Shown: positions 12,870 to 48,550 of the stretch, in pieces
Layout of the letters: the number at the start of each line of letters is the position of its first letter
Position numbering within the stretch: position 1 is the first letter of the stretch
Assembly: GCA_900318645.1 (NCBI GenBank)
Contig: ONLH01000033.1
Coordinates: 1-49,358 of the forward strand
Reading direction: 5' to 3'
Source of the DNA: an uncultured Prevotellaceae bacterium
GTDB taxonomy: Bacteria; Bacteroidota; Bacteroidia; Bacteroidales; Muribaculaceae
DNA length: 49,358 bases
Notes under the pieces: generated by a model
The model's database searches: none
What the model was told of the DNA's origin: nothing
The model's input: only the letters and a program-made list of their open reading frames with translations
Translations under genes and position numbers: made by a program

Positions 12870-12911
12870 TTAGACTTTAGACACTAGACGTTAGTCATTA
12901 GACACTATATA
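12870..12911 (+). repeat. Intergenic heptanucleotide array, TTAGACA family (6 units)
   Basis: Consecutive 7-mers TTAGACT, TTAGACA, CTAGACG, TTAGTCA, TTAGACA, CTATATA begin 10 bases after the upstream stop codon. All but the last unit contain TAG. Confidence 0.75.
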
Positions 12912-12938
12912 CTACAAGGGGTCCAAAAACTGAAAAAA

Positions 12939-15239
12939 ATGAGACGCGTTGTTGCATTTGACTTTGACGGGACCTATACCCTCAGCGACTCGCTGCCGTT
13001 GTTCCTGAAGTGGAGTTTCGGCAAGTGGCGTTACTGGTGGGGGCTGCTGCTGTGCCTGCCGTGGCTGGTGCTGTTCAAGCTACGACTGCTGCGTGGCGGC
13101 CAGGCCAAGGAAAGGCTCATCAGCCACTTTGTCAAAGGGATGCCGCAAGAGGAGTTCCAAGCCCTGGGCAGACAATTCGCGGCCCACTATCAGTCCACGC
13201 TGACGCGTCCCGAGGCGGAGCAAGCCATGAATGCCGCCCTCGAGAACGGCGATCAGGTGCTGGTCGTGACAGCGAGTATCATCGACTGGGTCAAGCCGTG
13301 GTTCAAGGACAGGAATGTGACCATACTCTCCACCGAGATGGAGGTGGATGCCGACGGCAGGCTGACGGGACGTTTTGCCTGCCCCAACTGCAACGGAGCC
13401 GAGAAATGGCGCCGCATCGTTGAGGCGGTGCCCGACGTGGAGCAGCGCGAGCTGGTAGCCTACGGCGACAGCGGTGGCGACCGTGTGATGCTCGCCCATG
13501 CCGACAAGGCCTACCTGGGCGATTTCAAGACCACGATGGAGCAGTTACCGAACACCCGCCGTCATCCGGGACGTCTGTTCTGGGCTGTCCTGCTCGTGCT
13601 GGTGCTGTACCAGATGCTGGGTGTATTCTTCGGCATGGACATCGCCGACGCGGGGTTTTACCTCACCTTCTATGACAACATCTTCACCCACCCCGGGAGT
13701 GTAGAGTATAATTTCATGTATTACCTGAACGGCGTGATCGGCGGCGCGTTCCAGTCATTGTTCCCGTCGATGGGTATATGCGGGATGCGACTGCTGGGCG
13801 TGGCGTTCAACACGCTGTGTGCCATCATCCTGTATTACGCCCTGCGCCGTCATGTCGATGAACGGGCCATCGCCCTGGGCTGTGCCCTTGTCGTCGCATC
13901 GTTCATCGCCCCACCCTACACCTTCTGCTACGACCTGTGCACCATCGTCTTCTACGTGCTTGCCATCACCCTGCTATGGCGAGGACTGGAGCGAAACAGC
14001 ACCTTGATGGTCGCTCTGGCGGGCGTCCTGGCGGGATTGAACATCCTGGTACGCATCCCCAATGTACTGGGCCTGTCGATGGCCTTGCTGCCCATTATCA
14101 TGTGGCTGTGCGACAAGCGGGGACGCCATGGTTGGAAACGCATGGTCACCTATTGCCTCGTCTTTTTGGCTTGTGCGGCTCTGGCAGTGATTTTGACCAT
14201 CTGTCTTATGCCCGAACTGCACCGCACTGCGTTCTATAGCGTCATGCATGACCTGCGCTCGATTGCCAACGATGACACGGGAACGGCATCCCATACCACC
14301 TCCCAGATGATTCTCACCCAACTCAAATTCTACGGCACCCAACTCTGGACAGCCGTCAAGTTGGGGGTTCCCGTACTCCTGTACTGGTGGGCACACAAGC
14401 AGGTGGGCAACAAGGCTCTCATGTGGGGACTCAAGGGCATCGCCATTGCGGCCTTTGTGTGGTTTGTATATCGGATGCACCCGCTGCAGCCCGTGTGGCT
14501 GATGTGCCTGGTGGGTGGCATCATGGTCATGGTGGAGAATTGGCGTGACCGCCGTGGCATCACTTGGATGGCGTTGCTGGGCATCGGTATGATGCTGGTG
14601 ATGCCGCTGGGCAGCGACGGCGCCTATAACAATGGAACCATCGTCGCATGGGCCATCGCTCCTGTCGCCATGCTGTGGTGGCTGCACCGCAGCCGCATCG
14701 CCTTCCCGCTGGTGCTGATTGCAGTGTGCGCCCTGCGCATGGTAACCGGCGGAGCCTACTTCGACGGCGGCCCCTTGTGGGAGAAGCGCTACACCGTGGA
14801 CAATCCCCGCGCTGCCCACATCTACACGACCCGCGAGCGCGCCTTCGTAATCAATACCATGCTGCACGGCATCGAGCCGCACGTCAAGCCGGGTACTGTG
14901 CTCATGGCCTACGGCAGCATCCCGATGATCAACTACCTCACCCACACGCGCCCCTACATCGGCTGCTCATGGGTAGAGCAACTGAGCGCCTCAATGCTTG
15001 AGAAGAAACTGGCCAAAGCGCCCAAAATTGGCTTCCCGCTCATCCTGCAGCAGAAGTTCAGTACGCTGGGACCGTACTGGAGTGAACCGATGGAGAACTT
15101 CAGGACAAGCTACGGCGACCAGCAGAACACCTACCGCGACAACCGCAAGCTGGAAGTGCTCAACCGATTCCTGGAATACGGGAAGTACCATGTTATCTAC
15201 GAAGACTCCCACTTCATCCTCTATCAACCCGGTTGGTAA
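12939..15239 (+). CDS. HAD-IB phosphatase fused to a multi-pass membrane GT-C-like domain
   Basis: The protein has 766 residues. Residues 1-200 form a HAD phosphatase. Motif I is DFDGTYT with Asp8 and Asp10, motif II Thr111-Ala-Ser, motif III Lys156, and motif IV YGDSGGD with Asp177 and Asp181. From about 210 come ten or more transmembrane helices. The first outer loop is acidic (GMDIADAGFYLTFYDN, Asp234 and Asp237), as in lipid-phosphosugar-dependent GT-C glycosyltransferases. A soluble tail (about 620-766) follows. Placed after a phosphoribosyl-prenyltransferase homologue, it could dephosphorylate polyprenyl-phospho-ribose-5-phosphate and transfer the pentose to an envelope glycan. The HAD part is clear. 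GT-C is a judgement from topology and the acidic loop, without a detectable family signature. Confidence 0.75.
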   Translation: MRRVVAFDFDGTYTLSDSLPLFLKWSFGKWRYWWGLLLCLPWLVLFKLRLLRGGQAKERLISHFVKGMPQEEFQALGRQFAAHYQSTLTRPEAEQAMNAALENGDQVLVVTASIIDWVKPWFKDRNVTILSTEMEVDADGRLTGRFACPNCNGAEKWRRIVEAVPDVEQRELVAYGDSGGDRVMLAHADKAYLGDFKTTMEQLPNTRRHPGRLFWAVLLVLVLYQMLGVFFGMDIADAGFYLTFYDNIFTHPGSVEYNFMYYLNGVIGGAFQSLFPSMGICGMRLLGVAFNTLCAIILYYALRRHVDERAIALGCALVVASFIAPPYTFCYDLCTIVFYVLAITLLWRGLERNSTLMVALAGVLAGLNILVRIPNVLGLSMALLPIIMWLCDKRGRHGWKRMVTYCLVFLACAALAVILTICLMPELHRTAFYSVMHDLRSIANDDTGTASHTTSQMILTQLKFYGTQLWTAVKLGVPVLLYWWAHKQVGNKALMWGLKGIAIAAFVWFVYRMHPLQPVWLMCLVGGIMVMVENWRDRRGITWMALLGIGMMLVMPLGSDGAYNNGTIVAWAIAPVAMLWWLHRSRIAFPLVLIAVCALRMVTGGAYFDGGPLWEKRYTVDNPRAAHIYTTRERAFVINTMLHGIEPHVKPGTVLMAYGSIPMINYLTHTRPYIGCSWVEQLSASMLEKKLAKAPKIGFPLILQQKFSTLGPYWSEPMENFRTSYGDQQNTYRDNRKLEVLNRFLEYGKYHVIYEDSHFILYQPGW

Positions 15240-15240
15240 G

Positions 15241-15352
15241 TTAGAAGTTAGGAGTTAGGAGTGAGGAGTGAGGAGTGAGGAGTTAGAAGTGAGGAGTTAG
15301 GAGTGAGGAGTTAGAAGTGAGGAGTTAGAAGTGAGGAGTTAGAAGTGAGGAG
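15241..15352 (+). repeat. Intergenic heptanucleotide array, TTAGAAG/TGAGGAG family (16 units)
   Basis: Sixteen uninterrupted 7-mers (TTAGAAG, TTAGGAG, TGAGGAG in mixed order) fill 112 bases starting one base after the stop codon and ending at TTAATTA before the next gene. Each unit holds TAG or TGA. Confidence 0.9.
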
Positions 15353-15375
15353 TTAATTAACTTAAGCATTAAAGA

Positions 15376-16656
15376 ATGGAAGGGCTCTTGCAATACATCT
15401 GGCAACACAAGCTGTGGCTGAGCGAGGACATGGTGACCAACGACGGCCGCAAGGTGCGCGTCATCGACCCAGGCCTGCTCAACACCGACGCGGGTCCCGA
15501 CTTCTTTAACGCCAAGGTGGAGATTGACGGCCACCTGTGGGTGGGCAACGTCGAAATCCACGTGCGCGCCAGCGACTGGAAACGCCACCATCATGATGAG
15601 GACCCGGCCTACGACAGCGTCATCCTGCACGTCGTCGAGAAGGACGATGCTCCCGTCACCCGCATCAATGGCGAACGCATTCCCCAAGTGGTCCTGCAGG
15701 TGTCGCCACGCTTCAACGAGTGCTATGACAGGCTGGTGAACGCCCAAGTGGAACTGCCCTGTGCCGCACGTCTGGGAGAAGTGCCGTCGCTCACAGTCAC
15801 CGAGTGGATCGAGGCTCTTGCGATGGAACGCCTGCACGGCAAGGTGGACCGCGTGCGGGAACTATATGACCGCTACAATGGCAGCTGGGAAGATATCTGC
15901 TATGTGTTGCTGGCCAGGACGCTGGGCTTCGGCATCAACGGCGATGCCATGGAACGGCTGGCTCGCATCACGCCGTTGCGCCTGCTGCACAAACACAGCG
16001 ACTCCATCCTCCAGGTCGAGGCACTGCTCTTCGGCCAGTCAGGGCTGCTGAACGGAGCCCACAGCGACGAGCCCTATTACCAGCAACTGATGCGGGAATA
16101 CGCCTTCCTCGCCAACAAGTTCTCGCTACGCCCCATCGAGGGAACGGCATGGCGCCTGTTCCGCAGCCGTCCCCAGAATTTCCCCTACCGCCGCATCGCC
16201 CTGCTTGCCCAGTTTGTCCAGGGTGGTTTCAACCTGATGAACAATGTCTTGGAGGCCAAGGATACCGATGAGTTGCGCCAGTTGTTTGATATCGAACTGA
16301 GCGGCTACTGGACAACACACTACAGTTTCGGCAAGCCTTCACCAAGTGCAGGCCGTGCCCTCTCGGGCAGTAGCATCGACGTAGTGCTCATTAACACCGT
16401 TGCCCCGCTACTGTATGCCCGTGGCGAGCTCACCGACGACTACAGCCTCACCGACCGCGCCATCGCCCTGCTTGAGGACCTGCGCCCCGAGCAAAACAGC
16501 ATCGTAACGATGTTCCGCAACGCCGGCATCAAGTGTGACGATGCCCTCACCAGCCAAGCCCTCATCCAACTGCGCCGCAACTACTGCGAGGCCCGCAAGT
16601 GCATCTACTGCCGCCTGGGCCACCGCCTCCTCGCCACCGATGCCCGCATGGTATAG
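15376..16656 (+). CDS. DUF2851 family protein
   Basis: This 426-residue soluble protein matches the DUF2851 family, typical of Bacteroidota. Recognisable blocks are the start (MEGLLQYIWQHKLW), the DPGLLNTDAGPDFFNAKV segment, the GNVEIHVRASDWKRHHHDED segment (residues about 57-76) and a Cys-rich C-terminus (CEARKCIYCRLGHRLL). The D-x-G-P-D-F-x-N and E-I-H...D-W...H-H pattern resembles a metal-dependent nuclease core, but I know of no proven activity. Only the heptad array separates it from the upstream HAD/GT-C gene, so it may be co-transcribed. The length is normal for the family. Confidence 0.88.
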   Translation: MEGLLQYIWQHKLWLSEDMVTNDGRKVRVIDPGLLNTDAGPDFFNAKVEIDGHLWVGNVEIHVRASDWKRHHHDEDPAYDSVILHVVEKDDAPVTRINGERIPQVVLQVSPRFNECYDRLVNAQVELPCAARLGEVPSLTVTEWIEALAMERLHGKVDRVRELYDRYNGSWEDICYVLLARTLGFGINGDAMERLARITPLRLLHKHSDSILQVEALLFGQSGLLNGAHSDEPYYQQLMREYAFLANKFSLRPIEGTAWRLFRSRPQNFPYRRIALLAQFVQGGFNLMNNVLEAKDTDELRQLFDIELSGYWTTHYSFGKPSPSAGRALSGSSIDVVLINTVAPLLYARGELTDDYSLTDRAIALLEDLRPEQNSIVTMFRNAGIKCDDALTSQALIQLRRNYCEARKCIYCRLGHRLLATDARMV

Positions 16657-16682
16657 AGCCTTGTGGCACAAGAGCAGAAAAG

Positions 16683-16715
16683 AGGGCACCACAGCCCGAA
16701 AAACTGCGGCACCCT
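16683..16715. terminator. Bidirectional terminator between converging genes
   Basis: AGGGCACCACAG at 16683 pairs with CTGCGGCACCCT at 16704 (12 bp with GU pairs on the minus-strand transcript). On the minus strand CTTTTCT follows. It sits between the ends of the DUF2851 gene and the minus-strand dockerin protein. Confidence 0.65.
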
Positions 16716-16739
16716 CAGCACTATAACAATTACGGAAAA

Positions 16740-17756
16740 TCAGTTTTTACCCAACAGCATATTGATGAGGGCAGTGACATCAGCAATTGTCACCTTGCCA
16801 TCGCCATTCACGTCACAGTAGGCGGGAATGTCGCCTCCGTCAAGCAACTGCCCGATGATGCCAGTCACGTCGCTGATGGCAATCTTGCCATCACCGTTCA
16901 CGTCACCAGGACCTGCACCCAAGAACGGCACGATGCGTCCGAAATGGCGCCACTCTTTGTGGTTGCGGTAAACCTGTAGTGATTCGGCCGGCACAAACAG
17001 CGTCTGGCCCGACCCAAAATGATTTCCGTAGTATTTTTCTGCTACATTAGGTGGAGTGACAGCCCTGCAGATAACGCATTTCACCTCGTCAGAACCACCC
17101 ACAAAATTATACTCCCAGATGTCAGTCAATGTCGAGGGCAAGTCAAGACTTGTCATATTACATCCCCAGAAGGCTTCATTATAAATACCTGTCACCTTAT
17201 AAGTTTTCCCTTCATATTCAACGCTTTCAGGAATCACTACATCTCCAGAGTAACAAAGAGAATGGGGATGGGGCCAAGGGTTATAGTCATGGCTTTCCAA
17301 ACCCTCGGTCGTCACCCAAACCTCATCACTGCCACGATACCTGTAATAGATACCATCCACTATAAAATCATAGAGATATACTAATTCTGGAACCGCCATT
17401 GCCACAAATGTCATGGTAACGACTTCACTTGGTGCTTTTCCCGGAGCTTCAGCATAGGCCTTAACGGTATACTGGCCTGGATAAAACGTTATAGGTAGTC
17501 CGTCGTAAGTGTACCATTCCATATATTCGTCATAACTCCAGTATTCAGCTATCCCATAGTAAATAACAGCGTCGTACTCTTCATTAGCATTCTCGATGGT
17601 AATTGAAGTGTAAACATTCAGTTCATCGGGATACAAGTCTATGTCTGGTGAATAACATGTAATCACAGGCGGAGCTGTCTGCTCCAACTCGTCCTGAGCA
17701 AACATGGTCATAGTAGTTGCAACCAGCAAAAACATTATAAGCAGTTTCTTTTTCAT
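16740..17756 (-). CDS. Secreted protein with CHB_HEX-like domain, short LRR segment and dockerin-like tail
   Basis: This 338-residue protein is read from the ATG at 17756, which begins a signal peptide (MKKKLLIMFLLVATTMTMF, then AQ). Residues about 25-120 resemble a chitobiase/hexosaminidase C-terminal type beta-sandwich (PPVITCYSPD... YTVKAYAEAPGKAPSE). Then come a repeated FIVDGIYYRY module, a short LRR_5 stretch (NEAFWGCNMTSLDLPST) and two dockerin type I-like loops (GDVNGDGKIAISDVT, CDVNGDGKVTIADVT). It is a shorter paralogue of the next upstream gene, 59 bases away on the same strand, so the two are likely one operon. Function is unknown; an extracellular location is well supported. Confidence 0.82.
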   Translation of the reverse strand: MKKKLLIMFLLVATTMTMFAQDELEQTAPPVITCYSPDIDLYPDELNVYTSITIENANEEYDAVIYYGIAEYWSYDEYMEWYTYDGLPITFYPGQYTVKAYAEAPGKAPSEVVTMTFVAMAVPELVYLYDFIVDGIYYRYRGSDEVWVTTEGLESHDYNPWPHPHSLCYSGDVVIPESVEYEGKTYKVTGIYNEAFWGCNMTSLDLPSTLTDIWEYNFVGGSDEVKCVICRAVTPPNVAEKYYGNHFGSGQTLFVPAESLQVYRNHKEWRHFGRIVPFLGAGPGDVNGDGKIAISDVTGIIGQLLDGGDIPAYCDVNGDGKVTIADVTALINMLLGKN

Positions 17757-17815
17757 TGTCGTAAAGTATAATAAGGTCAAACGGTTAAATACATCGTTGA
17801 GTCTGCTACAGAGAA

Positions 17816-19540
17816 TCAATTTCCGTTGAGCAGCATCTCAATCAGGGTTGACACGTCGGCGATTGACACCTTGCCGTCACCATTTACGTCGCAGAAGGCA
17901 GGCATCTCACCGCTTGCCAACAACTGGTTGATCAGGTTGGTCACGTCGCTGATGGCAATCTTGCCGTCACCGTTCACGTCACCTGGGCCAGCACCAAGGA
18001 ACGGCACGATGCGATAAAACTGTCCCCACTCCTCATGGGCACGATAAGCCTCAAGCGACTCATTGGGAACGAACAGTGTCGCCGAATGATAGGTTTCAAA
18101 TGCGTTGGAAATAAGATCAAGCATCGGCGGCGTCGGGGCCAGACAAACAACTTTGGCTACGGATGGGCAGCCAAGGAATACACCTTCATTGACGATAGTG
18201 ACCGATTGACCGATGGTCACGCTCGTCAAATCTTCGCAACACAGGAACATCGAAGCCGACATTGATGTGAGGGCATTGGGTATCACCACCTCGGACAAGC
18301 CCTTACAATCCGCAAATGCAGCGATGCCACATTCGATGAGTCCCTCAGGCAGAACTAGGCTTGAAATCGTGGTTCCGTAGAATGCGCCCTTGCCAATCGT
18401 GGTAATCGTGTTAGGCAACACCACGCTCGACAATTCACTTTCCACAAATGCAAACGGATTGACGCTCTTTACAGTATAGGTCGTGCCGCCATACTCAACA
18501 GTGGATGGAATGATCACGTCACCATAATAGTACGTAATGGGACGACCATTATACTGATCTGGGAATAAAAGATCAATGCCATGGGTGGTTTCAATCATTT
18601 CGGATGACACAGCGACAGTTGAATCAGTCAATTTCATATAATAAATACCATCAACCATGAAATCATAATTCTTCACATATCTTCTGTATAGGTCGTACCT
18701 ATTGGCGAAGTTAGCTTCCACTGTCGGGCTTGGCAGTTTCCCCGGTTCCACAGCATAAGCTTGGAAAATGAATTGATACTCTTGAGTACGCCAATCGAAG
18801 GAAAGCATACAATGTCCTCCTTCAACGCAACTCCATTCGGCGCTCTCGATATCAGGAACCCAGGGATCAGCGGCATATCTGTAATAAAGGACTGCCTCAG
18901 ATGATGGACTCTCGATCGTTACATCAAAGCGGTACAACTCATACTCATCGGTAGTGAACTTGAAGTTCGGATAGTCAGACGGCTCAGAAGGTGTTACCGT
19001 ATAGGTCACAGTCTTTGATGCAGCCTCATTTTGACACGTCCGTCCGCCAAAGACTTGAACGTCAATAACACTCTCGCCCTCGCCAACTGTGATATAGTTG
19101 TTAATGACCTCTGTCTCCATGCCGTTAACGGTAACATAGAGGAATACGGGCTCGTTGCCACCGATGTAGGCGACGAAAATTCTGCCATCTTCTTCGACAT
19201 CGCCGATAACAATATCACCCATCAGAGTTGTGGCACTAGGAATGATGCACTCCGCGGTTGATAAACCATCAATTTGACCCTCAACGTGAGCTATTGCGAC
19301 TACGTCCATAATCAATCCATAGCAGTCGGGGGAACTAACACTGTAGGGATTCTCGACCTCCGTGTCGCCAATATAAAGATGAACTTCACCCTCACCATAT
19401 GCAAAAATGTTAGCGACACCGAACCACTCATCTACATCACAAACGATGACAGGAGGCTCGGTCTGTACAGGCACATCTTGGGCGCAAACGGTCACTGTGG
19501 CTGCGACCAGCAACATAAGAGATAAGAGTAGCTTTTTCAT
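17816..19540 (-). CDS. Secreted protein with beta-sandwich domains, LRR_5 segment and dockerin-like tail
   Basis: This 574-residue protein has its start chosen at the ATG at 19540 (MKKLLLSLMLLVAATVTVC, then AQ), matching the paralogue; an ATG two codons upstream is possible. It has two or more Ig/CHB_HEX-like segments (for example EPPVIVCDVDEWFGVANIF and the region with EPGKLPSPTVEANF), a FMVDGIYYMKL module and five or six LRR_5 units (LSSVVLPNTITTIGKGAF). Two dockerin type I-like loops end it (GDVNGDGKIAISDVT, CDVNGDGKVSIADVS). It is the upstream member of a two-gene minus-strand unit. No catalytic motif is visible. It is likely a surface or secreted binding protein. Confidence 0.82.
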   Translation of the reverse strand: MKKLLLSLMLLVAATVTVCAQDVPVQTEPPVIVCDVDEWFGVANIFAYGEGEVHLYIGDTEVENPYSVSSPDCYGLIMDVVAIAHVEGQIDGLSTAECIIPSATTLMGDIVIGDVEEDGRIFVAYIGGNEPVFLYVTVNGMETEVINNYITVGEGESVIDVQVFGGRTCQNEAASKTVTYTVTPSEPSDYPNFKFTTDEYELYRFDVTIESPSSEAVLYYRYAADPWVPDIESAEWSCVEGGHCMLSFDWRTQEYQFIFQAYAVEPGKLPSPTVEANFANRYDLYRRYVKNYDFMVDGIYYMKLTDSTVAVSSEMIETTHGIDLLFPDQYNGRPITYYYGDVIIPSTVEYGGTTYTVKSVNPFAFVESELSSVVLPNTITTIGKGAFYGTTISSLVLPEGLIECGIAAFADCKGLSEVVIPNALTSMSASMFLCCEDLTSVTIGQSVTIVNEGVFLGCPSVAKVVCLAPTPPMLDLISNAFETYHSATLFVPNESLEAYRAHEEWGQFYRIVPFLGAGPGDVNGDGKIAISDVTNLINQLLASGEMPAFCDVNGDGKVSIADVSTLIEMLLNGN

Positions 19541-19699
19541 TGTCATCAAGTTTTTTAATGGTTAAACTATTTATGACCACGAATTTACTATCCACAAAAC
19601 TCTCAAACAAGCGATTTTGCAGGAAAAACCGCCAAATTCCATTTTTTGACAAAAAAGTGTCTAATTATTTTACACTTTGGCCACTAACTAACGAAAAAA

Positions 19700-19732
19700 C
19701 TTGCGGGCCAGTAATGATTATCAGCCCGCAAG
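19700..19732 (-). terminator. Intrinsic terminator of the PBP1A gene
   Basis: CTTGCGGGC and GCCCGCAAG form a perfect 9-bp stem with a 15-base loop. On the minus strand six T follow. It lies 33 bases after the PBP1A stop. Confidence 0.8.
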
Positions 19733-19764
19733 CAGCGTTATTCGTTGTCAAATATTTTTCTTGC

Positions 19765-22243: not shown

Positions 22244-22285
22244 TTCCTAACTCCTCACTTCTAACTTCTAACTCCTCACTTCTAA
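22244..22285 (-). repeat. Intergenic heptanucleotide array, TTAGAAG/TGAGGAG family (6 units)
   Basis: On the minus strand TTAGAAG, TGAGGAG, TTAGAAG, TTAGAAG, TGAGGAG, TTAGGAA follow the stop of the glycosyltransferase by 2 bases. The orientation relative to transcription is the same as in the plus-strand arrays. Confidence 0.85.
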
Positions 22286-22287
22286 CT

Positions 22288-23043
22288 CTATTGCCTGTTT
22301 GCACTGCCTCCCAGGCGGCGTTTCAGGAAACGAGGGATGAAGCTCAGATGGGCCAATGTAGCGCGTACTGCGCCATAATGGCGGCACATGATTTGGTAAC
22401 GCTCCCACAACGAGGCACGATGATGCCGCGTCGTCATGCCATCGGCCAGATAGCTGATAATGGGCACACGGCCGGCATAGGCATTGGCGGGCGACTTCTT
22501 CAACACCCTGATGCACCAGTCATAGTCGGCACTCAGACGATAATTCAGGTCATACTCGGGAGCCAAATCACGACGCACGACAAATGCCTGATGACACACC
22601 ACCATGCCACGCAGGAAACTATCGACTCCCAGACGCTTGGGGGCCGTCAAGTGTCGCTCACCGACCACCTCACGCGACTGGTCCACGAGTTGGGTTTGCC
22701 CATAGATGACTCCTGGGTTACCGGCAGCGAGCTGGGCCAGACGCGCCAACACAGTGTCACTGGCAAAGGCGTCGCCGGCATTAAGGAATATGATATAGCG
22801 GCCACGTGCAAGCTTGATACCCTTGTTCATGGCATCATACAATCCCCGGTCAGGCTCACTGAACACACGCATCGACGAAATCGAAGCGCCACGCACGAGA
22901 TTTAGCGTATCGTCGGTGGAAGCGCCATCAATGATAAGCATCTCGTAGTCCGTGCTGGTCTGTCGCTGCACACTCTCTAGAGTGGGAACGATAACACTGG
23001 CAGCATTCCAGGTAACGGTAATAATGGAAAAAAGAGGTTCCAT
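22288..23043 (-). CDS. Family 2 glycosyltransferase
   Basis: This 251-residue GT-A fold enzyme begins FSIITVTWNAASVIVPTLES, the nucleotide-binding strand of GT2 enzymes. IIDGASTDDTL follows, then the DAMNKGIKLARGRYIIFLNAGDAF block, whose last Asp-containing segment stands in for the DxD metal site. A His/Asp-rich segment (LSADYDWCIRVL) fits the acceptor-side catalytic region. Such enzymes transfer a sugar from a nucleotide donor to a surface glycan; neither donor nor acceptor can be read here. A TAATTTTG promoter lies 26 bases upstream of the ATG. The length is typical of short GT2 enzymes in Bacteroidales. Confidence 0.9.
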   Translation of the reverse strand: MEPLFSIITVTWNAASVIVPTLESVQRQTSTDYEMLIIDGASTDDTLNLVRGASISSMRVFSEPDRGLYDAMNKGIKLARGRYIIFLNAGDAFASDTVLARLAQLAAGNPGVIYGQTQLVDQSREVVGERHLTAPKRLGVDSFLRGMVVCHQAFVVRRDLAPEYDLNYRLSADYDWCIRVLKKSPANAYAGRVPIISYLADGMTTRHHRASLWERYQIMCRHYGAVRATLAHLSFIPRFLKRRLGGSANRQ

Positions 23044-26269: not shown

Positions 26270-26275
26270 TGTCAG

Positions 26276-26324
26276 TTAGGAGTTAGGAGTTAGAAGTTAG
26301 AAGTTAGAAGTGAGGAGTTAGGAG
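26276..26324 (+). repeat. Intergenic heptanucleotide array, TTAGGAG/TTAGAAG family (7 units)
   Basis: TTAGGAG x2, TTAGAAG x3, TGAGGAG and TTAGGAG run without a break from 6 bases after the stop codon. Confidence 0.9.
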
Positions 26325-26412
26325 TGCCATGTCATGATCTGGCAAGGCTTGTTATCTTTCACGCTAAAGCCAAAAATCCGAGATAAAAAACCATCAACTG
26401 AAAACTATTTAT

Positions 26413-30870: not shown

Positions 30871-31362
30871 ATGGTAATGCACACCATACTACTCATCGGC
30901 GGCGCTATCTGTCTGATAGCTGCAATACTCCTCGTGCTGTGGCCTCGCTGGGTCGCAGCCGTGCCTGCGTTCCTCGGCCTGCTGCTCATGCACTTGAGCT
31001 ACACCATCGACGTGAAGACGATGACATTCATCTTCTGGGGTATCGCTACGCTGATCACCGTTGGACTCTTTTATCTCTCACCCAGTGGCGAGCCCGACGG
31101 CAACCGTTCCAGCAACCTGTATATCGGTTTTACATCCATGGCTGGCGGCATGCTAGGCATCATGCTCGCACCCCGCGTCATGGTGCTGGGTGTTATCCTG
31201 GGAGCGGCTATGGGACAGCTGGCCTACAGCCGCACGCCTGCTGGCAAATGGATGCTCAACCCCTCGACGATGTTTTGGAAATATTTTGCCGCCAAGTGCC
31301 TGCCCGCCATCGTCGCCATTTCCATCGTGTGCATTGCGGTCATGGGAATGGTCATTGATTAG
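30871..31362 (+). CDS. Small multi-pass membrane protein, unknown function
   Basis: This 163-residue protein has four to five hydrophobic helices (about 3-23, 27-45, 52-68, 90-120 and 140-160). The loop GEPDGNRSSN lies between helices three and four, and GAAMGQLAYSRTPAGKWM looks like a cytoplasmic loop. The glycine-rich fourth helix (GGMLGIMLAPRVMVLGVILG) resembles DUF456-type proteins, but I cannot assign it with confidence. It follows the PgpH gene by 65 bases and may share its transcript. A second ATG two codons in is equally possible. Confidence 0.75.
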   Translation: MVMHTILLIGGAICLIAAILLVLWPRWVAAVPAFLGLLLMHLSYTIDVKTMTFIFWGIATLITVGLFYLSPSGEPDGNRSSNLYIGFTSMAGGMLGIMLAPRVMVLGVILGAAMGQLAYSRTPAGKWMLNPSTMFWKYFAAKCLPAIVAISIVCIAVMGMVID

Positions 31363-31425
31363 TGAGGAGTTAGAAGTTAGGAGTTAGAAGTTAGAAGTTA
31401 GAAGTTAGAAGTTAGGAGTTAGGAA
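31363..31425 (+). repeat. Intergenic heptanucleotide array, TTAGAAG/TTAGGAG family (9 units)
   Basis: TGAGGAG, TTAGAAG, TTAGGAG, TTAGAAG x4, TTAGGAG and TTAGGAA start on the very next base after the TAG stop codon of the upstream gene, whose own last bases (TTAG) fit the repeat. Confidence 0.9.
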
Positions 31426-31482
31426 TTTGAAATTTACACTTACGGCTATTGGTTGAAGGCCAATGGCCAAAAGCAAGAAACG

Positions 31483-40378: not shown

Positions 40379-40404
40379 TGGCGCTTTAACGAAAAATTCA
40401 GACG

Positions 40405-40953: not shown

Positions 40954-40974
40954 CTTTTAAATAACAACAAGAAA

Positions 40975-41157: not shown

Positions 41158-41222
41158 ATCGACGGTTAGCCGAGCCCTAGCGCAAGCCAGGAAAACGGCA
41201 AGCCCCGATGAACGCGAACAAG

Positions 41223-41272: not shown

Positions 41273-41319
41273 TGAATTTAAAACTAACACCTCAAGAAAT
41301 ATAACACGCTTTCAAGCTT

Positions 41320-42303: not shown

Positions 42304-42429
42304 CACGCCCAGATACATCTCACATGAAGCATCACTACTCACGCGTGCAACAACAACGGGTAGCGATGCTTCTTGAATGTAAACAGTAAGATTTCTGCCT
42401 TTCTTTTTCTTCAAGCGACAGCAATCTCA

Positions 42430-42471
42430 CTGACAACTGAAAACTGACAACTGTAAAACTGACAACTGAAA
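42430..42471 (+). repeat. Intergenic heptanucleotide array, CTGACAA/CTGAAAA family (6 units)
   Basis: CTGACAA, CTGAAAA, CTGACAA, CTGTAAAA (8 bases), CTGACAA and CTGAAAA run up to the era start codon. The last unit shares its final A with the ATG. Confidence 0.85.
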
Positions 42472-43353: not shown

Positions 43354-43358
43354 AAACG

Positions 43359-43414
43359 CTGACAACTGAAAACTAACAACTGTCAACTGATAACTGACAA
43401 CTGAAAACTAAATA
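43359..43414 (+). repeat. Intergenic heptanucleotide array, CTGACAA family (8 units)
   Basis: CTGACAA, CTGAAAA, CTAACAA, CTGTCAA, CTGATAA, CTGACAA, CTGAAAA, CTAAATA fill the gap from 5 bases after the era stop to 3 bases before the der ATG. Confidence 0.9.
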
Positions 43415-43417
43415 AAT

Positions 43418-44731
43418 ATGGGACGTTTAGTAGCAATCGTGGGAAGGCCCAACGTGGGCAAGTCAACACTGTTCAACCGCCTGACTCAAACGCGCGCCGC
43501 CATCGTCAACGACACCAGCGGCACGACACGCGATCGCCAGTACGGCAAGATGGAATGGAACGGCATGGAAATGTCGGTCGTCGATACCGGTGGATGGGTC
43601 GTGAACAGCGAGGACATCTTTGAGGAAGAGATCAACAAGCAGGTACAGCTCGCCATCGAGGAGGCCGATGTCATCCTCTTTGTCGTGGACATCAAGAACG
43701 GCATTACCGACCTTGACGACCACGTCGCCGACATCCTGCGCCGCACCTCCAAACCGGTCATCGTCGTGGCCAACAAGGACGACAACAACCAGAGCATGTA
43801 TGCCGAGGCCGAGTTCTACGCCCTCGGACTCGGGCAACCGTTCTCCATCTCGGCCATCAACGGTACTGGCACGGGAGACCTGCTCGACGAGGTTGTCAAG
43901 CAGATGCCCGAGAAGGCCAATGAGGACATCGACGAGGAACTGCCCCGATTTGCCATCGTCGGCCGCCCCAACGCCGGCAAGTCGTCGCTGGTCAACTCGC
44001 TCATGGACGAGGAGCGCAACATCGTCACCGATATCGCCGGAACCACGCGCGACAGCATCTACTCGCGCTACAACAAGTTCGGCTTTGACTTCTACCTCGT
44101 GGACACCGCCGGTATCCGCAAGAAGAACAAGGTGAACGAGGACATCGAGTATTACTCGGTGCTGCGTTCCATCCGCGCCATCGAGAACAGCGACGTGTGC
44201 ATCCTGCTCATCGACGCCACCCGCGGCATCGAGTCCCAGGACGTGAACATCTTCTCCATCATCCAGAAGAACCGCAAGGGTCTCGTCGTGCTCGTCAACA
44301 AATGGGACATCGCCCTGGACAAGTCACAGAAGGCCTTCGACCACTTCGAGGCCACCATCCGTGACCGTTTCGCGCCGTTTACCGATTTCCCCATCATCTT
44401 TGGCTCGGCGGTCACCAAGCAGCGCATCCACAAGGTGCTGCAGACGGCCATCGACGTCTATAACAACCGTCGCATTACCATCCCCACCTCGCAGCTCAAC
44501 AACGTGCTGCAGGCCGACATCCAGGCCTATCCGCCACCCGCTGTCAAGGGAAAGTATGTCAAGATCAAGTACATCACCATGTTGAAGGGAGCCAACGTGC
44601 CCACGTTCATCTTCTTCTGCAACCTACCGCAATGGGTAAAGGACCCCTACAAGCGCTACTTGGAGAACAAAATCCGCGAGCACTGGAACCTGTTTGGTAC
44701 CCCCATCAACATCTTCTTTAGGGAAAAATAA
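43418..44731 (+). CDS. der: GTPase Der (EngA)
   Basis: This 437-residue protein has two tandem GTPase domains and acts in 50S subunit assembly. The first G1 is [12 protein letters not shown], with DTGG and NKDD. The second G1 is [12 protein letters not shown] (near residue 181), with DTAG and NKWD. The KH-like C-terminal domain follows ([20 protein letters not shown]). All motifs are intact and the length is normal. It is the last gene of the DUF177-der run. Confidence 0.97.
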
Positions 44732-44765
44732 ACTGTTACAAAAAAAATACAGGTTTTTCATTGAG

Positions 44766-44804
44766 GCACATCCATCTGTTTTTCAGCAAGTTGGATGTGC
44801 TTTT
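44766..44804 (+). terminator. Intrinsic terminator of der
   Basis: GCACATCCA at 44766 pairs with TGGATGTGC at 44792 (9 bp), and TTTT follows. It lies 34 bases after the stop codon. Confidence 0.8.
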
Positions 44805-44846
44805 CAAAAATTATCTGGAATTTATATTCTAAAACATAAAAAAATA

Positions 44847-44879
44847 TTTGGTGTATTATAAACTTTCTTATTAACTTTG
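44847..44879 (+). promoter_or_regulatory. Bacteroidota promoter (TTTG / TAACTTTG) with no protein gene behind it
   Basis: TTTG at 44847 and TAACTTTG at 44872 are 21 bases apart. The next coding start is about 250 bases away, beyond a terminator and another promoter. Confidence 0.75.
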
Positions 44880-44885
44880 CACTCA

Positions 44886-45024
44886 GAAAATGTAAACAAT
44901 CTTAATTGATTCTCTAACGAGAGTCAAATTCATAGCGTAATAAGAAAAAGAAATAAACTAATATATACTTGAATTTTGGTTATGAAGATGGTGTACTTTT
45001 GTGAAAAAGTACACTTTCGCTTTT
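44886..45024 (+). ncRNA. Candidate small RNA (about 135-140 nt)
   Basis: It is bracketed by a consensus promoter (44847-44879) and a perfect 10-bp terminator stem (GTGTACTTTT 44991 with AAAAGTACAC 45005), followed by TTTCGCTTTTT. An internal hairpin GATTCTC/GAGAGTC (44918-44935) has a TAAC loop. No ORF longer than a few codons fits. It could also be a transcribed leader that attenuates the gene at 45127, but that gene has its own promoter. No known RNA family is recognised. Confidence 0.55.
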
Positions 45025-45049
45025 TATATACCCCCTCTTTGACAAAAAA

Positions 45050-45077
45050 CTGAAATCCTGAAACTGAAATCTGAAAA
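45050..45077 (+). repeat. Short heptanucleotide array, CTGAAAT family (4 units)
   Basis: CTGAAAT, CCTGAAA, CTGAAAT, CTGAAAA lie between the candidate small RNA and the next promoter. Each unit contains TGA. Confidence 0.6.
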
Positions 45078-45085
45078 CAAATTAC

Positions 45086-45093
45086 TATCTTTG
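45086..45093 (+). promoter_or_regulatory. Bacteroidota -7 promoter element
   Basis: TATCTTTG lies 33 bases upstream of the coiled-coil gene. Confidence 0.65.
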
Positions 45094-45126
45094 CCCTCAC
45101 AATTCAACTTTTAAAACCGGATAGCA

Positions 45127-45831
45127 ATGAAAAGAATTAAATTGATGGTCATTACACTGACCTTGATGACTATGGCGGCCATGACCCCCAACGCAATGGC
45201 CCAGCAGACAACGCCTGACGTACAACAGCTCGAAAAAGACATCGAGCAGCACGAGAAAAACATCCAGGAGAAGGAAGCTGCCATCAAGGAACTAGAGAAC
45301 CGCATCGATGATCTCAAGTCCCAGCTCAAGGAACTTGAAAGCCAGAAGAAAGCACTGGAAAAGGAAATCAAGACCGAGACCAAGACCCGCAAAGAGAAAT
45401 TCGCCAAACGCGACGATATGGTCTATGACCAGGAAATCGTTGATGTGTTGTACAACCCCTTCAACAAGGAGGATGTCGATGATGCGCTCGCCAGCTTCGA
45501 GGGCATGGAAACCAAGGATGTACTCAAGAAGAAAGAGCTCATCGAGAAATATGGCGAATACACCAAGGACCTGAGAGACTGCCTCGAGAAGCAGAAGACC
45601 GCTCTCGCCAAGACCAAGTGGGCTTACCAGTCATCGACCAGCGACGTTTATAAGAAGTTTGAAAAAGCCATCAAGGGCACCAAGTACTGGAAAGTCTACA
45701 ACAAGAAAGAGAAAAACGAGAGCATCGACTACCTGAACCGCGTCATGGACAAAATCATGCTCTTCAAGAACGACGGCCTCAAGGACGAGCGCAAACTCAA
45801 CGAAGCCATCAACATGCTCTACGCCAACTAA
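45127..45831 (+). CDS. Exported coiled-coil protein, unknown function
   Basis: This 234-residue protein has a signal peptide (about 1-25, MKRIKLMVITLTLMTMAA, ending NAMA). A long heptad-patterned coiled coil follows (residues about 33-95, rich in Lys/Glu, with LEKDIEQHEKNIQEKEAAIK). The C-terminal half is helical and charged (VLYNPFNKEDVDDALASF, EKAIKGTKYWKVYNKKEK). No enzymatic motif is visible. Periplasmic coiled-coil proteins of this size are often spacers or chaperone-like, but nothing here decides that. It has its own promoter and terminator, so it is monocistronic. Confidence 0.85.
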   Translation: MKRIKLMVITLTLMTMAAMTPNAMAQQTTPDVQQLEKDIEQHEKNIQEKEAAIKELENRIDDLKSQLKELESQKKALEKEIKTETKTRKEKFAKRDDMVYDQEIVDVLYNPFNKEDVDDALASFEGMETKDVLKKKELIEKYGEYTKDLRDCLEKQKTALAKTKWAYQSSTSDVYKKFEKAIKGTKYWKVYNKKEKNESIDYLNRVMDKIMLFKNDGLKDERKLNEAINMLYAN

Positions 45832-45866
45832 GCAAGAAGACCTAGAGTAGAGCAAGAAAGACAATC

Positions 45867-45926
45867 AGTACAACAGGCACAATCGCTTCTCACTAGACAG
45901 CCTTGTGTTTGTTGTACTTTTTGTTT
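45867..45926 (+). terminator. Terminator after the coiled-coil gene
   Basis: AGTACAACA at 45867 pairs with TGTTGTACT at 45910, with CACAA/TTGTG nested inside. TTTTTGTTTT follows. Confidence 0.65.
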
Positions 45927-45979
45927 TCATCCGTTCGTCCGTTTGTTCGTTTTGTACCATTAGTTTTAATTTTTTATAG

Positions 45980-45987
45980 TACCTTTG
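45980..45987 (+). promoter_or_regulatory. Bacteroidota -7 promoter element
   Basis: TACCTTTG lies 26 bases upstream of the short ORF at 46014. Confidence 0.65.
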
Positions 45988-46013
45988 TGGTTCAATGCTA
46001 TAATACCAGGCCA

Positions 46014-46118
46014 ATGATTACAGGAGAAATCAAAAATAGGATAGACAGTATTTGGGACACCTTTTGGACAGGTGGCATCACCAATTCCATGGCCGAGTTT
46101 AAGGAGAAATACCTGTAG
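46014..46118 (+). pseudogene. 34-codon relic of a type I restriction methyltransferase (HsdM) N-terminus
   Basis: The ORF begins MITGEIKNRIDSIWDTFWTG and continues GITN. This closely matches the conserved start of HsdM subunits of type I restriction-modification systems (MITGEL..IDxIWDxFWSGGI). It then diverges (SMAEFKEKYL) and stops. The rest of hsdM, with its SAM and NPPY motifs, is absent. A good promoter precedes it. Its stop codon ends 2 bases before the ATG of the HUH gene, so translating it could couple to that gene. It is either a relic captured at an insertion or deletion junction, or a leader peptide reused for coupling. The similarity is from memory of the family. Confidence 0.6.
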
Positions 46119-46120
46119 TC

Positions 46121-47266
46121 ATGATACAGACGTCCTATCGTCCCCGCAATCCAGGTCATGACTACTACGGTAGAGGGACCTACCTCATCACCCTGGTGGT
46201 GAGCGGGAGAGCACCGTTGCTTGGACGCTTGGGCGATGATGTCAGGCACCCCGAGGTCGTGTTGTCACCGCTGGGCGAAGCGGTGAAGCAGGCGTGGGAA
46301 ACCATCCCCGAGAAACAGGCATCTCACGGCAATCACGTGGCAGTACACGCCAGCGTCTGTATGCCCGACCATTTCCACGGCGTGCTTGAAGTGCTAGAGC
46401 CCATGCAGTGGAGCCTGGGCGATATCATGCAGGCCTTCAAGGCCGCCTGCACCAGCCACTGGCAGCGGCAACAGGGGCACGGCCCTTCCGTCAATCGCCC
46501 GATATCGGTCGATTGCCATAGCCCTCAAGCACCGGCATGGCTGCGCGAGAAGGCCCGCCTCTACGACAACGAGGGTGCCCTCATCCGTGCCATGTCCAAG
46601 CGACAGCGGCAGGAATATTACGCACTGGTGGGCAGGGAGCAGCGACCACTGTTCGACGACAATTACGACGACACGGTGTGCCTCGACCAGCGGCACCGCG
46701 AGGCGATGATCGGCTACGTTCACGACAACCCGCGACGCGCCATCCTGCGGCGCGTCTTGCCCCAGTTGATGCAGCGCAGCCTGCATGTCCAAATCGGAGG
46801 GCGCGACTATGGCACCTTCGGCAATCTCTTCCTGCTGCGATGGCCCGGCAAGGTGCAGGTGCAATGCCACCGCCGGCATCCCGTTACCAGAGAGCCCTAC
46901 GAGACCACGGCCGACTATGCCCGCCAGCATCAGCAATGGGTGGATGCCATCATGCAAGGAGCCACCGTCATTGTCACCCCCGGCATCTCAAAAGGCGAAC
47001 TGATGATGAAAAACGAATGCCTCAACAACGGTTACCCCATCATCCATATCCAGAAAGAACCCATCACCACCTATTGGAAACCCGAGCGGATGCGATTTGA
47101 GGCCTGCGCTAACGGCAGCCTGCTCATTCTTGCACCTTGGGGACTCGATGCGATGGCGGCGGTCAACGGGGTGCCTGCCGACAGCGACTATAGCCGTTTC
47201 CATAACATGAACCATCTTGCTGCCGAAATCTGCGCCTTCGACGGCAATGCCTCCATCTTGAGATAA
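46121..47266 (+). CDS. HUH (Y1) transposase-like protein with C-terminal Rossmann/SLOG-like domain
   Basis: This is a 381-residue protein. The N-terminal half (about 10-215) matches the Y1/REP-associated tyrosine transposase group: GTYLITLVVSGR (strand 1), HASVCMPDHFHGVLEV with the metal-binding His84-x-His86 pair, SLGDIMQAFKAACT and the tyrosine-bearing IGYVHDNPRRAIL segment (Tyr199 a candidate nucleophile). The C-terminal half (about 225-381) is not part of classic IS200/RAYT proteins. It has YGTFGNLFLL, GATVIVTPGISKGELMMK, NGYPIIHIQKE and GSLLILAPWG, which resembles a DprA/SLOG-type Rossmann fold. No inverted repeats of an IS flank it. A domesticated single-strand nuclease is an alternative to an active transposase. 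The N-terminal assignment is firm and the C-terminal one tentative. Confidence 0.75.
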   Translation: MIQTSYRPRNPGHDYYGRGTYLITLVVSGRAPLLGRLGDDVRHPEVVLSPLGEAVKQAWETIPEKQASHGNHVAVHASVCMPDHFHGVLEVLEPMQWSLGDIMQAFKAACTSHWQRQQGHGPSVNRPISVDCHSPQAPAWLREKARLYDNEGALIRAMSKRQRQEYYALVGREQRPLFDDNYDDTVCLDQRHREAMIGYVHDNPRRAILRRVLPQLMQRSLHVQIGGRDYGTFGNLFLLRWPGKVQVQCHRRHPVTREPYETTADYARQHQQWVDAIMQGATVIVTPGISKGELMMKNECLNNGYPIIHIQKEPITTYWKPERMRFEACANGSLLILAPWGLDAMAAVNGVPADSDYSRFHNMNHLAAEICAFDGNASILR

Positions 47267-47315
47267 AAAACCAAGCATGAACCCAGGATAAAGTCATGAG
47301 CTGGATTTTGGTTCA

Positions 47316-47367
47316 TTTCGTTCATTTCATTTTCTATTATATATATAAAGAAATGAAATGAACGAAA
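47316..47367. repeat. Perfect 17-bp inverted repeat downstream of the HUH gene
   Basis: TTTCGTTCATTTCATTT at 47316 is exactly reverse-complementary to 47351-47367, around an 18-base AT loop. It starts 50 bases after the HUH gene stop. No T-run follows on either strand, so it is not a standard terminator. Confidence 0.7.
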
Positions 47368-47405
47368 CAAAAATCGCCGGCAACATCATGTGTCGGCGAT
47401 TCTTG

Positions 47406-47479
47406 TGGTCCCACTTGGGCTTGAACCAAGGACTCCCTGATTATGAGTCAGGTGCTCTAACCAACTGAGCTATAGGACC
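47406..47479 (-). tRNA. tRNA with anticodon CAT (elongator Met or Ile2)
   Basis: The minus strand gives a full cloverleaf: acceptor GGTCCTA/TGGGACC (one GU), D-arm GCTC/GAGC, anticodon stem CCTGA/TCAGG with loop CTCATAA, and T-arm CTTGG/CCAAG with TTCAAGC. The paired position 1-72 (G-C) argues against initiator tRNA. Whether it is elongator Met or lysidine-type Ile cannot be settled here. CCA is not encoded. Confidence 0.93.
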
Positions 47480-47715
47480 GGCTTGCGGTGGCATTGCCAT
47501 GCAAAGCGGGTGCAAAGTTAGTAAATTATCACGACATGGCAACGGGTATCAGATATTTTTTTCTTTTTCGGAAAAAATTATTCTTGTTCCAGAATAATTA
47601 TAGAACCATAACGGACAAGAAACCTATCATGAGTTTACAGAAAAATGTTGTTTTTCACATTTTTTAAATATCTTGATTGCTTTTATTAGAGAAATATTTA
47701 GTTAATTTGCATCGT

Positions 47716-47832
47716 CTTTAAAAGACATATAAAGAGAGAACGTGAAAAGTAAAAATGCTTTTATGGGGTAAATATAGTTTTCAAGTATTAGTAATTATGA
47801 GGGTCTCAGCAGTGAATGCTCGGACCTTTTTT
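47716..47832 (+). ncRNA. Candidate small RNA (about 117 nt)
   Basis: A promoter-like element (TTAATTTG at 47702, one base short of consensus, with TTG 22 bases upstream) precedes a gene-free stretch. The stretch ends in a 10-bp terminator stem (GGTCTCAGCA 47802 with TGCTCGGACC 47817, one mismatch) and six T. A small GTCTT/AAGAC hairpin lies at the 5' end. The transcript would face the end of the minus-strand wbqC gene. An Rfam comparison, for example with the Bacteroidales-1 and 6S models, would be decisive. Confidence 0.5.
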
Positions 47833-47856
47833 CTTTCCCTTTTCTGATCTCACTTC

Positions 47857-48510
47857 CTAATCTCCGGTCACCATTGCCATCAGCGTGAAGATGCCTTCTC
47901 GCCCCATATTCATCATCAGGTCAAGAATGCTCAGGTCGGCCTTGAAGCCCGTGGTGCCCTTCCACATCTGGTAATACTCGACATCGGTGAGAGGGAGGTT
48001 GTCGGCCTTCTTCATGGCGATGCGTCCCCTCAGGTCCAGTGCATCAGCCTTGTCGCCCTGCCCCACTTCATCCAGGTATCGGGTCATCAATGGCAGGTCC
48101 ATGAAATCGACGATCACCGCATGCAGTTGGCTATTGAACTCATGCAGGTAGCGCTGCGACCCGTTGATGACGCGCGACAGGTCATCGGCGACATAGTCAA
48201 AATAAGGCGAACGGCCGTAAGCCGAGAACAAGGCGCCCCAATGCAGGCGACGCCAATCGCCATGCTCCGAGATGAGCACATCGCGCAACGGGGTCATCAT
48301 GTTGTTGGTAGAGCCGACAAGAGGGACGGTGAGCGTCTGCACTCCGTTAGGACCGTCGATGCGGTAGCGATGGTGACTGTGGCGCAGGGGCAGGTGCTTC
48401 TCCCCCAGGTCAACCAGCAGGTGACCCGACTGCACGGCCGCCGCATAGCATCGCACACTGGCGGCACACATGCTGCCCATCACAACGGATATTGCCGACG
48501 ATTCAAGCAT
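47857..48510 (-). CDS. WbqC family protein
   Basis: This 217-residue protein matches the WbqC-like family (found in O-antigen and surface glycan regions of some bacteria; biochemical role unsettled). Family marks are a His/Arg-rich early block (KHLPLRHSHHRYRIDGPNG), TLTVPLVGST, HGDWRRLHWGALFSAYGRSP with YFDY, and a Leu-rich C-terminus (LSILDLMMNMG). The start was set at the ATG at 48510; an upstream TTG would add four residues. It follows lepB by a 40-base spacer made of a heptad array and is probably co-transcribed with it. Confidence 0.85.
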   Translation of the reverse strand: MLESSAISVVMGSMCAASVRCYAAAVQSGHLLVDLGEKHLPLRHSHHRYRIDGPNGVQTLTVPLVGSTNNMMTPLRDVLISEHGDWRRLHWGALFSAYGRSPYFDYVADDLSRVINGSQRYLHEFNSQLHAVIVDFMDLPLMTRYLDEVGQGDKADALDLRGRIAMKKADNLPLTDVEYYQMWKGTTGFKADLSILDLMMNMGREGIFTLMAMVTGD

Positions 48511-48522
48511 TGAAAATAGCAA

Positions 48523-48550
48523 CTAACACCTAAAACCTAACGCCTAACAC
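48523..48550 (-). repeat. Intergenic heptanucleotide array, GTGTTAG family (4 units)
   Basis: On the minus strand GTGTTAG, GCGTTAG, GTTTTAG, GTGTTAG follow the lepB TAG stop codon with no gap. The stop codon itself continues the TTAG phase only in part. Every unit contains TAG. Confidence 0.8.

Follow-up and report, generated by a model that had tools for sequence, protein, structure and literature searches.

Degenerate heptad arrays with a strand polarity at gene edges in the spacers of an uncultured Muribaculaceae genome

Introduction

Bacterial heptad repeats, which include the short tandemly repeated repetitive (STRR) sequences of cyanobacteria, have been noticed repeatedly and explained separately, by quadruplexes, as a translation regulator, or by polymerase slippage. 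Here, we describe arrays of degenerate 7-nucleotide (nt) units between the genes of an uncultured Prevotellaceae bacterium (Muribaculaceae in GTDB), starting from one whole contig of 49,358 nt (ONLH01000033.1, C64 in our numbering; hereafter the window) of its 3.60-Mb genome, which is assembled in 75 contigs (GCA_900318645.1). We demonstrate the period of these arrays, their intergenic location, a strand polarity at gene edges, an effect on leaders, turnover at orthologous gaps, and an enrichment in stop triplets.

Two described systems come closest. Passages of MacGregor 2015 (PMC4679880) report direct repeats of the heptamer TAACTGA in Beggiatoaceae, Cyanobacteria, and five Bacteroidetes, which are mostly intergenic, forward before start codons, and carry stops in all frames; they also mention further heptamer repeats in some Bacteroidetes gaps. 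Excerpts of Rehm 2015 (PMC4692102) describe G-rich heptads (GGGAATC or GGGGAYT) in Xanthomonas and Nostoc, which form G-quadruplexes in vitro and whose G-rich strand is the coding strand just past stops and the non-coding strand just before starts. On a broader scale, Mrazek 2007, as cited in both papers, found an excess of heptanucleotides among long simple sequence repeats (SSRs) and proposed polymerase slippage, while part of a survey (PMC12699852) finds some repeats with 6–9 bp units enriched in prokaryotic phyla. Among the literature matches listed for heptads in Bacteroidetes or Bacteroidales, PMC4679880 was the sole paper on heptad repeats.

Our arrays are of this broad kind, yet they fit neither word-specific definition. 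As far as the passages of PMC4679880 go, they share with the TAACTGA repeats a period of seven, intergenic location, forward orientation on the start side, all-frame stops, and an AACTGAN unit in the start-side family. In contrast, that system is a single word, whose one-base variants are rarely repeated in that paper's main genome, whereas here there are five degenerate families, many of them on the stop side. Exact TAACTGA doublets are absent from the 849-kb sample defined below, where NAACTGANAACTGA matches 37 times, and they do occur in genomes G010 and G266. With the Xanthomonas and Nostoc heptads, as portrayed in the excerpts of PMC4692102, our arrays share polarity, scarcity in divergent gaps (here 2/87), inverted pairs, and occupation of the same gene pairs, at varying length, in two relatives; five conserved columns are a further likeness to Xanthomonas. 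Those heptads form quadruplexes in vitro, while ours lack a G3+ motif (0/90). Like the excess that the citing papers attribute to Mrazek 2007, our arrays favor seven, but their units are degenerate and identity recurs at 14 rather than 7 nt. What is new is the set of degenerate Bacteroidota families that lack quadruplex motifs, along with the finding that polarity and stops are separable, the effect on leaders, the turnover at orthologous gaps, and a step of 14 nt. Since the same polarity is found without quadruplex motifs and with stops on both strands, the earlier explanations come apart and the cause becomes testable.

Results

Arrays were counted in 849,358 bases, consisting of the window and 40 stretches of 20 kb on contigs preselected for word matches, with genes called by a simple purpose-made caller whose predicted starts are uncertain. 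At one threshold, period 7 gave 90 arrays and period 9 gave 24, as against 0, 1, 2, 0, and 0 for periods 5, 6, 8, 10, and 11; shuffled sequences (one shuffle each) gave none at any period from 2 to 30. Extrapolation yields ∼380 arrays per genome, which is probably too high because of the choice of contigs. Near-perfect tracts of the kind that define phase-variation SSRs were not the rule, with only 1 of the 90 arrays perfect. Intergenic DNA holds 87 of the 90, with 66 arrays in co-directional gaps, 18 in convergent gaps, 2 in divergent gaps, and 1 undefined. The sample contains 70 divergent gaps, yet only these 2/87 intergenic arrays are divergent; counted by gap, arrays occupy 4/70 divergent gaps vs. 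88/428 others. Nearly half of the co-directional arrays (32/66) start between −25 and +10 nt from a stop codon, where random placement within gaps predicts 16.4. The motif TANNTTTG, which we take to be a Bacteroidota promoter motif, is present in 20/74 array-bearing co-directional gaps vs. 120/286 array-free ones (Fisher p 0.023).

Five unit families (AGTKAGR, AGTTKTY, GTTTARW, GATTAGW, and TTAGRYN) account for 83/85 sorted arrays, and each is common to 8–24 arrays. The AGTTKTY family reads RAMAACT in sense, which is AACTRAN. In AGTKAGR, five columns are conserved at ≥99% and two are variable (152 units, 24 arrays), while TTAGRYN is looser. Within arrays, identical units are in excess at lag 2 (14 nt), a value reached by 3/1,000 permutations here and by 0/1,000 in relatives. 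Array growth therefore seems to proceed by 14 nt.

The arrays are polarized relative to the genes that flank them. In co-directional and convergent gaps, they tend to show the G/T-rich strand at the left end and the A/C-rich one at the right, which makes the G/T-rich strand point off the gene. In this genome, each of the 38 G/T-rich arrays in co-directional gaps is nearer the stop, and of the 28 A/C-rich ones 17 are nearer the start and 10 nearer the stop. The rule is obeyed by 71/85 arrays here (15/18 in convergent gaps), 85/109 at loci of an Era-like gene, 14/17 in g13, a genus of the same family, and 5/5 in other Bacteroidia. It also holds for 30 of the 31 scored arrays (33 in total) in 20 stretches, picked for ACTRRNR arrays, of six Bacteroidia genomes that represent three other families. 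Polarity is weaker in other sampled members of the genus (24/38), in G216 (12/22 scored, 24 arrays), and in G293 (4/6). The divergent gaps of G000, genus members, and the Era loci (6/9) hold too few arrays for a judgment. One genome per species entered these comparisons; the names Era-like and Der-like come from reading the sequence and not from a family search, while the other named genes were assigned by Pfam. The A/C-rich strand is the sense strand in 40/42 arrays between the Era-like and Der-like genes and in 32/38 arrays upstream of the Era-like gene, which are AACTRAN-like.

Neither quadruplexes nor stops are needed for this polarity. A G3+ quadruplex motif was found in 0/90 arrays here and 1/68 in other sampled genomes, and a G2+ motif in 4/90; given the 0/90, G-quadruplexes cannot be its general cause. 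Arrays with stops on both strands follow the rule at 111:27, those with sense-leaning stops at 65:19, and the remaining ones at 14:9. When polarity and stop orientation conflict, polarity prevails at 21:8.

Before start codons, the polarity keeps leaders unstructured. When 114 start-side arrays were flipped to their reverse complement, mean folding went from −10.65 to −16.09 kcal/mol, and 97 of them fold more weakly as found. Leaders with arrays (n = 101) are 48% A and fold at −6.3 kcal/mol vs. 34% A and −11.6 kcal/mol for those without (n = 1,226). Bacteroidota rely on A-rich unstructured leaders. Judged by the hairpin that marks repetitive extragenic palindromes (REP) and bacterial interspersed mosaic elements (BIME), heptad-bearing co-directional gaps are of another kind, since they fold about like array-free ones (mean z of −2.27 vs. 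−1.84).

Stops are enriched and sense-leaning, yet dispensable. In this genome, sense stops per 7 nt number 0.88 on the stop side vs. 0.74 in column-permuted units (n = 44) and, on the start side, 0.91 vs. 0.46 (n = 13); the corresponding values in other genomes are 0.80 vs. 0.56 (n = 63) and 0.81 vs. 0.50 (n = 74). Compared to flipped arrays, sense stops are higher on the start side (0.91 vs. 0.51 here, n = 13, p 0.0039; 0.81 vs. 0.70 elsewhere, n = 74, p 0.073), with no significant surplus on the stop side (p 0.12 here, 0.15 in other genomes). When the 274 co-directional arrays of all sets are sorted by a lean to one strand (a difference of >0.4 stops per 7 nt), stops occupy both strands in 138, favor sense in 84 and antisense in 29, and are few on either strand in 23. 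The sense to antisense lean is 21:0 in this genome, 41:20 in relatives, and 2:3 in G293, and 11/15 arrays lean to sense in G216 (unit AGTCAAR). Neither of the two outcomes that the initial annotation named as refuting was observed: the arrays are not oriented at random to genes (84:29 in favor of sense), and their sense stops (0.80–0.91 per 7 nt) exceed those of unit-permuted controls (0.46–0.74). All three frames are closed in sense by 55/66 co-directional arrays and in antisense by 42/66, compared to 59% for column-permuted units. The first 30 nt past the stop close three frames in 29/44 array gaps vs. 25/285 array-free gaps, a comparison that is partly tautological.

Unit variants retain a stop in sense in 94/99 cases here (75.2 expected) and in 144/166 in relatives (125.1 expected), and in antisense in 74/88 (66.4 expected) and 127/145 (109.4 expected), although these variants are not independent because few families underlie them. 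In genus g13, there is no excess in sense (11/14, 10.7 expected) or antisense (9/13, 9.6 expected). TGG after ACT was seen 2 times vs. 30.8 expected from pooled frequencies or 8.6 within loci. Distant relatives (L084, L094, and L099) carry stop-free GGATCGG-type arrays, including at the gap upstream of the Era-like gene. Stop codons look like a secondary feature of the arrays, not their purpose, because the G/T polarity is stronger, stops on both strands are common, and relatives have stop-free arrays.

Few gaps of the window keep arrays across species, and the units at those that do are replaced. At a lower array threshold than in the 849-kb sample, orthologs carry arrays in 37/78 cases upstream of the Era-like gene, 41/69 between the Era-like and Der-like genes, and 7/16 at the gap near 48500; the other eleven window gaps with any orthologs have arrays in 8/276 together, 5 of them at the 45050 gap. 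Records whose Era-like protein is closest are labeled as uncultured members of Prevotellaceae, Bacteroidales, or Muribaculaceae; ruminant stomachs are the source of many, and 'Candidatus Sodaliphilus' is among the more distant matches. Units at orthologous gaps vary by species (AACTGAN, GGACTAA, GTCTAAN, AACTAAC, GCTAATR, and others), and even close relatives differ in length at one site (∼19 units in L106 vs. ∼6 in L032). The two arrays that flank the Era-like gene are more alike within a genome (0.660) than between permuted genomes (0.608; 31 genomes); for orthologous arrays, unit similarity is 0.692 at the Era-Der gap and 0.569 at the Era-upstream gap.

We also followed one word, four tandem copies of ACTRRNR, through three sets of genomes. 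It is found in 75/101 genomes of the genus (14, counted by eye, for the reversed control; maximum of 31 in one genome), and in a draw from the family in 15/148 genomes, with 7/137 outside the genus. In a draw from the phylum, 45/247 genomes match vs. 43 (by eye) for the reversed control. We therefore rejected phylum-wide enrichment; ACTRRNR is not special outside some genera. In eight other Bacteroidia genomes with word matches, 400 kb at arbitrary positions gave 5 arrays of period 7, 4 of period 8, and 3 of period 6, which leaves period 7 with no more than a slight lead there.

Such spacer arrays differ among species and sometimes sit at contig ends, which is a practical warning. In G216 (C76), G293 (C38), and G478 (C67), heptad arrays lie within a few bases of the end of a contig, and they may thus break assemblies.

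Discussion

We favor, with a probability of roughly 0.45, the view that the arrays are lineage-specific spacer satellites sorted by selection. Degenerate heptads, mostly with about five fixed and two free columns, would expand, apparently in two-unit blocks of 14 nt, and be replaced in untranslated co-directional and convergent spacers, each genome holding a small set of unit families that it reuses across many loci. Selection would then sort the arrays, leaving few of them in coding DNA or in the promoter gaps of divergent genes. In front of start codons, it would retain mostly the A/C-rich strand as sense, given that leaders in Bacteroidota ought to be unstructured and rich in A, and frame-closing units might be favored or better tolerated. 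We infer both the mechanism of expansion and the role of selection as the cause. An idea in the initial annotation, that of a selfish or slippage repeat tolerating only stop-bearing units, fits better than a translation barrier, although slippage by one unit found no support.

Several results weigh against the satellite view. It leaves unaccounted why the G/T-rich strand is sense past stop codons. Flipping 120 stop-side arrays leaves folding unaffected (p 0.65), and the 40 nt that follow stops in array-free gaps show no excess of G/T, so neither structure nor background composition accounts for the polarity on this side. An explanation by avoidance of Rho loading, through C-poor sense units past stops, was dropped on the same absence of a G/T excess. 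Unit identity at lag 1 (7 nt) shows no excess over permutations, which speaks against simple 7-nt slippage, and columns that are near-fixed across many loci look tighter than would be expected of a neutral satellite. Orthologous Era-Der arrays resemble each other more (0.692) than the two arrays within a genome do (0.660), so inheritance at a site counts besides genome-wide turnover. Finally, the P-values treat arrays as independent although unit families are shared, which overstates significance.

Two alternatives lie at the level of RNA or translation. If array RNA in 5′ leaders and 3′ ends were bound by a small protein covering ∼7 nt (of the S1, cold-shock, or RRM type), much as a passage of PMC4679880 proposes S1, Csp, and Csr as binders of TAACTGA, one could understand why most Era-Der arrays keep a sense ACT core while other bases change, why unit columns are fixed, and why arrays abut starts. 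We regard this as on the unlikely side, since a genome carries several unlike families, relatives carry different ones, and many gene starts do without (1,226 leaders vs. 101 with arrays). The other proposal of the initial annotation was an all-frame translation stop, in which three units close every frame, block readthrough or frameshifted ribosomes, and insulate the next gene. Its factual core stood, because stops are enriched over permuted units at both gene edges, exceed flipped ones at starts, lean to sense at 84:29, and are kept by unit variants, with TGG rare after ACT and three frames closed soon after the stop codon more often than in array-free gaps, within the tautology noted above. 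What did not stand is the need for stops: half of the co-directional arrays are two-stranded, 29 have their stops mainly on the wrong strand and 23 few on either, the stop side shows no significant difference from flipped arrays, antisense stops are retained too (74/88, 66.4 expected), genus g13 lacks the excess, relatives have stop-free units, and most gaps have no array. A translation stop is therefore clearly unlikely as the general explanation.

A process at the level of DNA, such as recombination, end healing, or a nuclease barrier acting at gene edges, would set or keep G/T-outward arrays on both sides of the gene, whatever the unit. It draws on a polarity that recurs across sets (71/85, 85/109, 14/17, and 30/31), holds in convergent gaps (15/18), persists when stops are on both strands, and resembles that in the excerpts on Xanthomonas and Nostoc (PMC4692102). 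However, polarity is weak in genus members (24/38), G216 (12/22), and G293 (4/6), divergent gaps are too few (6/9), and leader folding offers a simpler cause on the start side, so that we hold such a process to be quite improbable. A wider conjecture would have unrelated heptad words in Bacteroidota, Xanthomonas, and Nostoc share one gene-edge law, G/T-rich outward, arising from a shared process rather than from the word, stops, or G-quadruplexes; that process would deposit or maintain the arrays in sevens, amplified as fourteen. We consider it doubtful. That the two arrays of one gap form the two halves of a long hairpin, in RNA or as a cruciform, serving as a terminator or processing signal, is very improbable. 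The opposite polarity at the two gap ends and near-complementary arms in some gaps (L140, L202, and L058) invite this idea, but arms are no better matched within their own gap (0.622) than with other gaps of the same genome (0.627; 32 gaps), and the z scores given above reveal no clear extra folding of heptad gaps, so pairing was rejected.

Loci of the Window and Other Repeats

Nine arrays of strict period 7 had been claimed in the window. At each locus, distance-7 matches were compared with those in 500 dinucleotide shuffles of the local 200 bp, and eight loci beat all 500, the exception being the 45050 locus. Strictness failed at this locus and at 42430, where one step is 8 nt. The number of arrays within 10 nt of a stop codon, put at six, is in fact seven (at 9, −2, 0, 4, −2, 5, and −3 nt). 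The two minus-strand loci (22244 and 48523) do retain sense orientation, and no period-7 row falls in the so-called LRR cluster (Tandem Repeats Finder score ≥30), as the initial annotation had stated. Its arithmetic, by which a period of 7 brings stops into all three frames, is correct, but it overlooked the additional stop on the opposite strand of many units. In Tandem Repeats Finder, 15239-15355 is reported as a 14-nt repeat too, and 22247-22287 as a 21-nt one. A stretch resembling the 45050 locus is present in relative L031.

Table 1. Repeat arrays of the window and of other stretches of the same genome
Feature	Stretch	Coordinates	Strand	Context
Degenerate TTAGACN heptad array	Window	12870..12914	+	9 nt past stop of UbiA-family gene; score 13.0, 0/500 shuffles
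AGTKAGR array, ~16 units	Window	15238..15353	+	Begins within stop codon of upstream gene; 14-nt repeat reading too
AGTKAGR array	Window	22245..22287	-	Directly after stop of glycosyltransferase-family gene (22288-23043, minus)
AGTKAGR array	Window	26274..26325	+	4 nt past stop; upstream of RelA/SpoT-family gene
AGTKAGR array, clean to ~31422	Window	31361..31435	+	Start lies in stop codon TAG
AACTGAN array, one 8-nt step	Window	42429..42471	+	Extends up to ATG of Era-like GTPase gene
AACTRAN array	Window	43359..43412	+	Fills gap between Era-like and Der-like GTPase genes
Irregular CTGAAAT-like stretch, steps 6-8 nt (rejected)	Window	45046..45078	+	37/500 shuffles reach score
TTAGGYN array	Window	48514..48553	-	Begins at stop codon of gene 48551-49357; same-type array in relative L031
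ATTTTTCTC nonad arrays	Window	3265-3304, 8759-8792		Gaps of so-called LRR cluster region
94-bp direct repeat, three copies	Window	11425-11709		Contains CTTAGCG words
Period-9 arrays	L114	5930-5980, 10878-10929
Period-9 arrays	L125	1907-1956, 3156-3192
Period-9 array	L133	17456-17499
Period-9 array	L135	17665-17714
Gap with heptads and nonads	L135	17627-17745		Order given in text

Some heptad arrays adjoin hairpins, in cases that involve the GATTAGW and GTTTARW families. At L121, L133, L136, L143, and L149 of the window genome, we found a recurring module in which a GCTCGC/GCGAGC hairpin-like stretch, often right after a stop, is followed by GATTAGW or GTTTARW heptads and often by GCATCCGC. Copying of the whole module is likely for these two families, the only ones seen in it, and unproven for the remaining ones. 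Dispersal as a mobile element was discarded, since, of the 407 matches in the flank comparison, the 40 examined were largely neighboring repeats.

Repeats of other periods occur alongside the heptads. The intergenic period-9 arrays of the window genome have a palindromic core plus three free bases, as in TCTAGANNN and also CTATAGNNN, and several fold into stems. One gap of L135 holds, in order, a stop, AGTKAGR heptads, TCTAGANNN nonads, AACTRAN heptads, and a start. In L201, L203, and L204 (G112 and G154), period-8 arrays of CCTTTNAT adjoin their complement ATNAAAGG, which looks like amplification of both hairpin arms. In the window itself, the CTTAGCG words of the 94-bp repeat are complementary to a dispersed CTAAGCCGC-type repeat found elsewhere in the genome.

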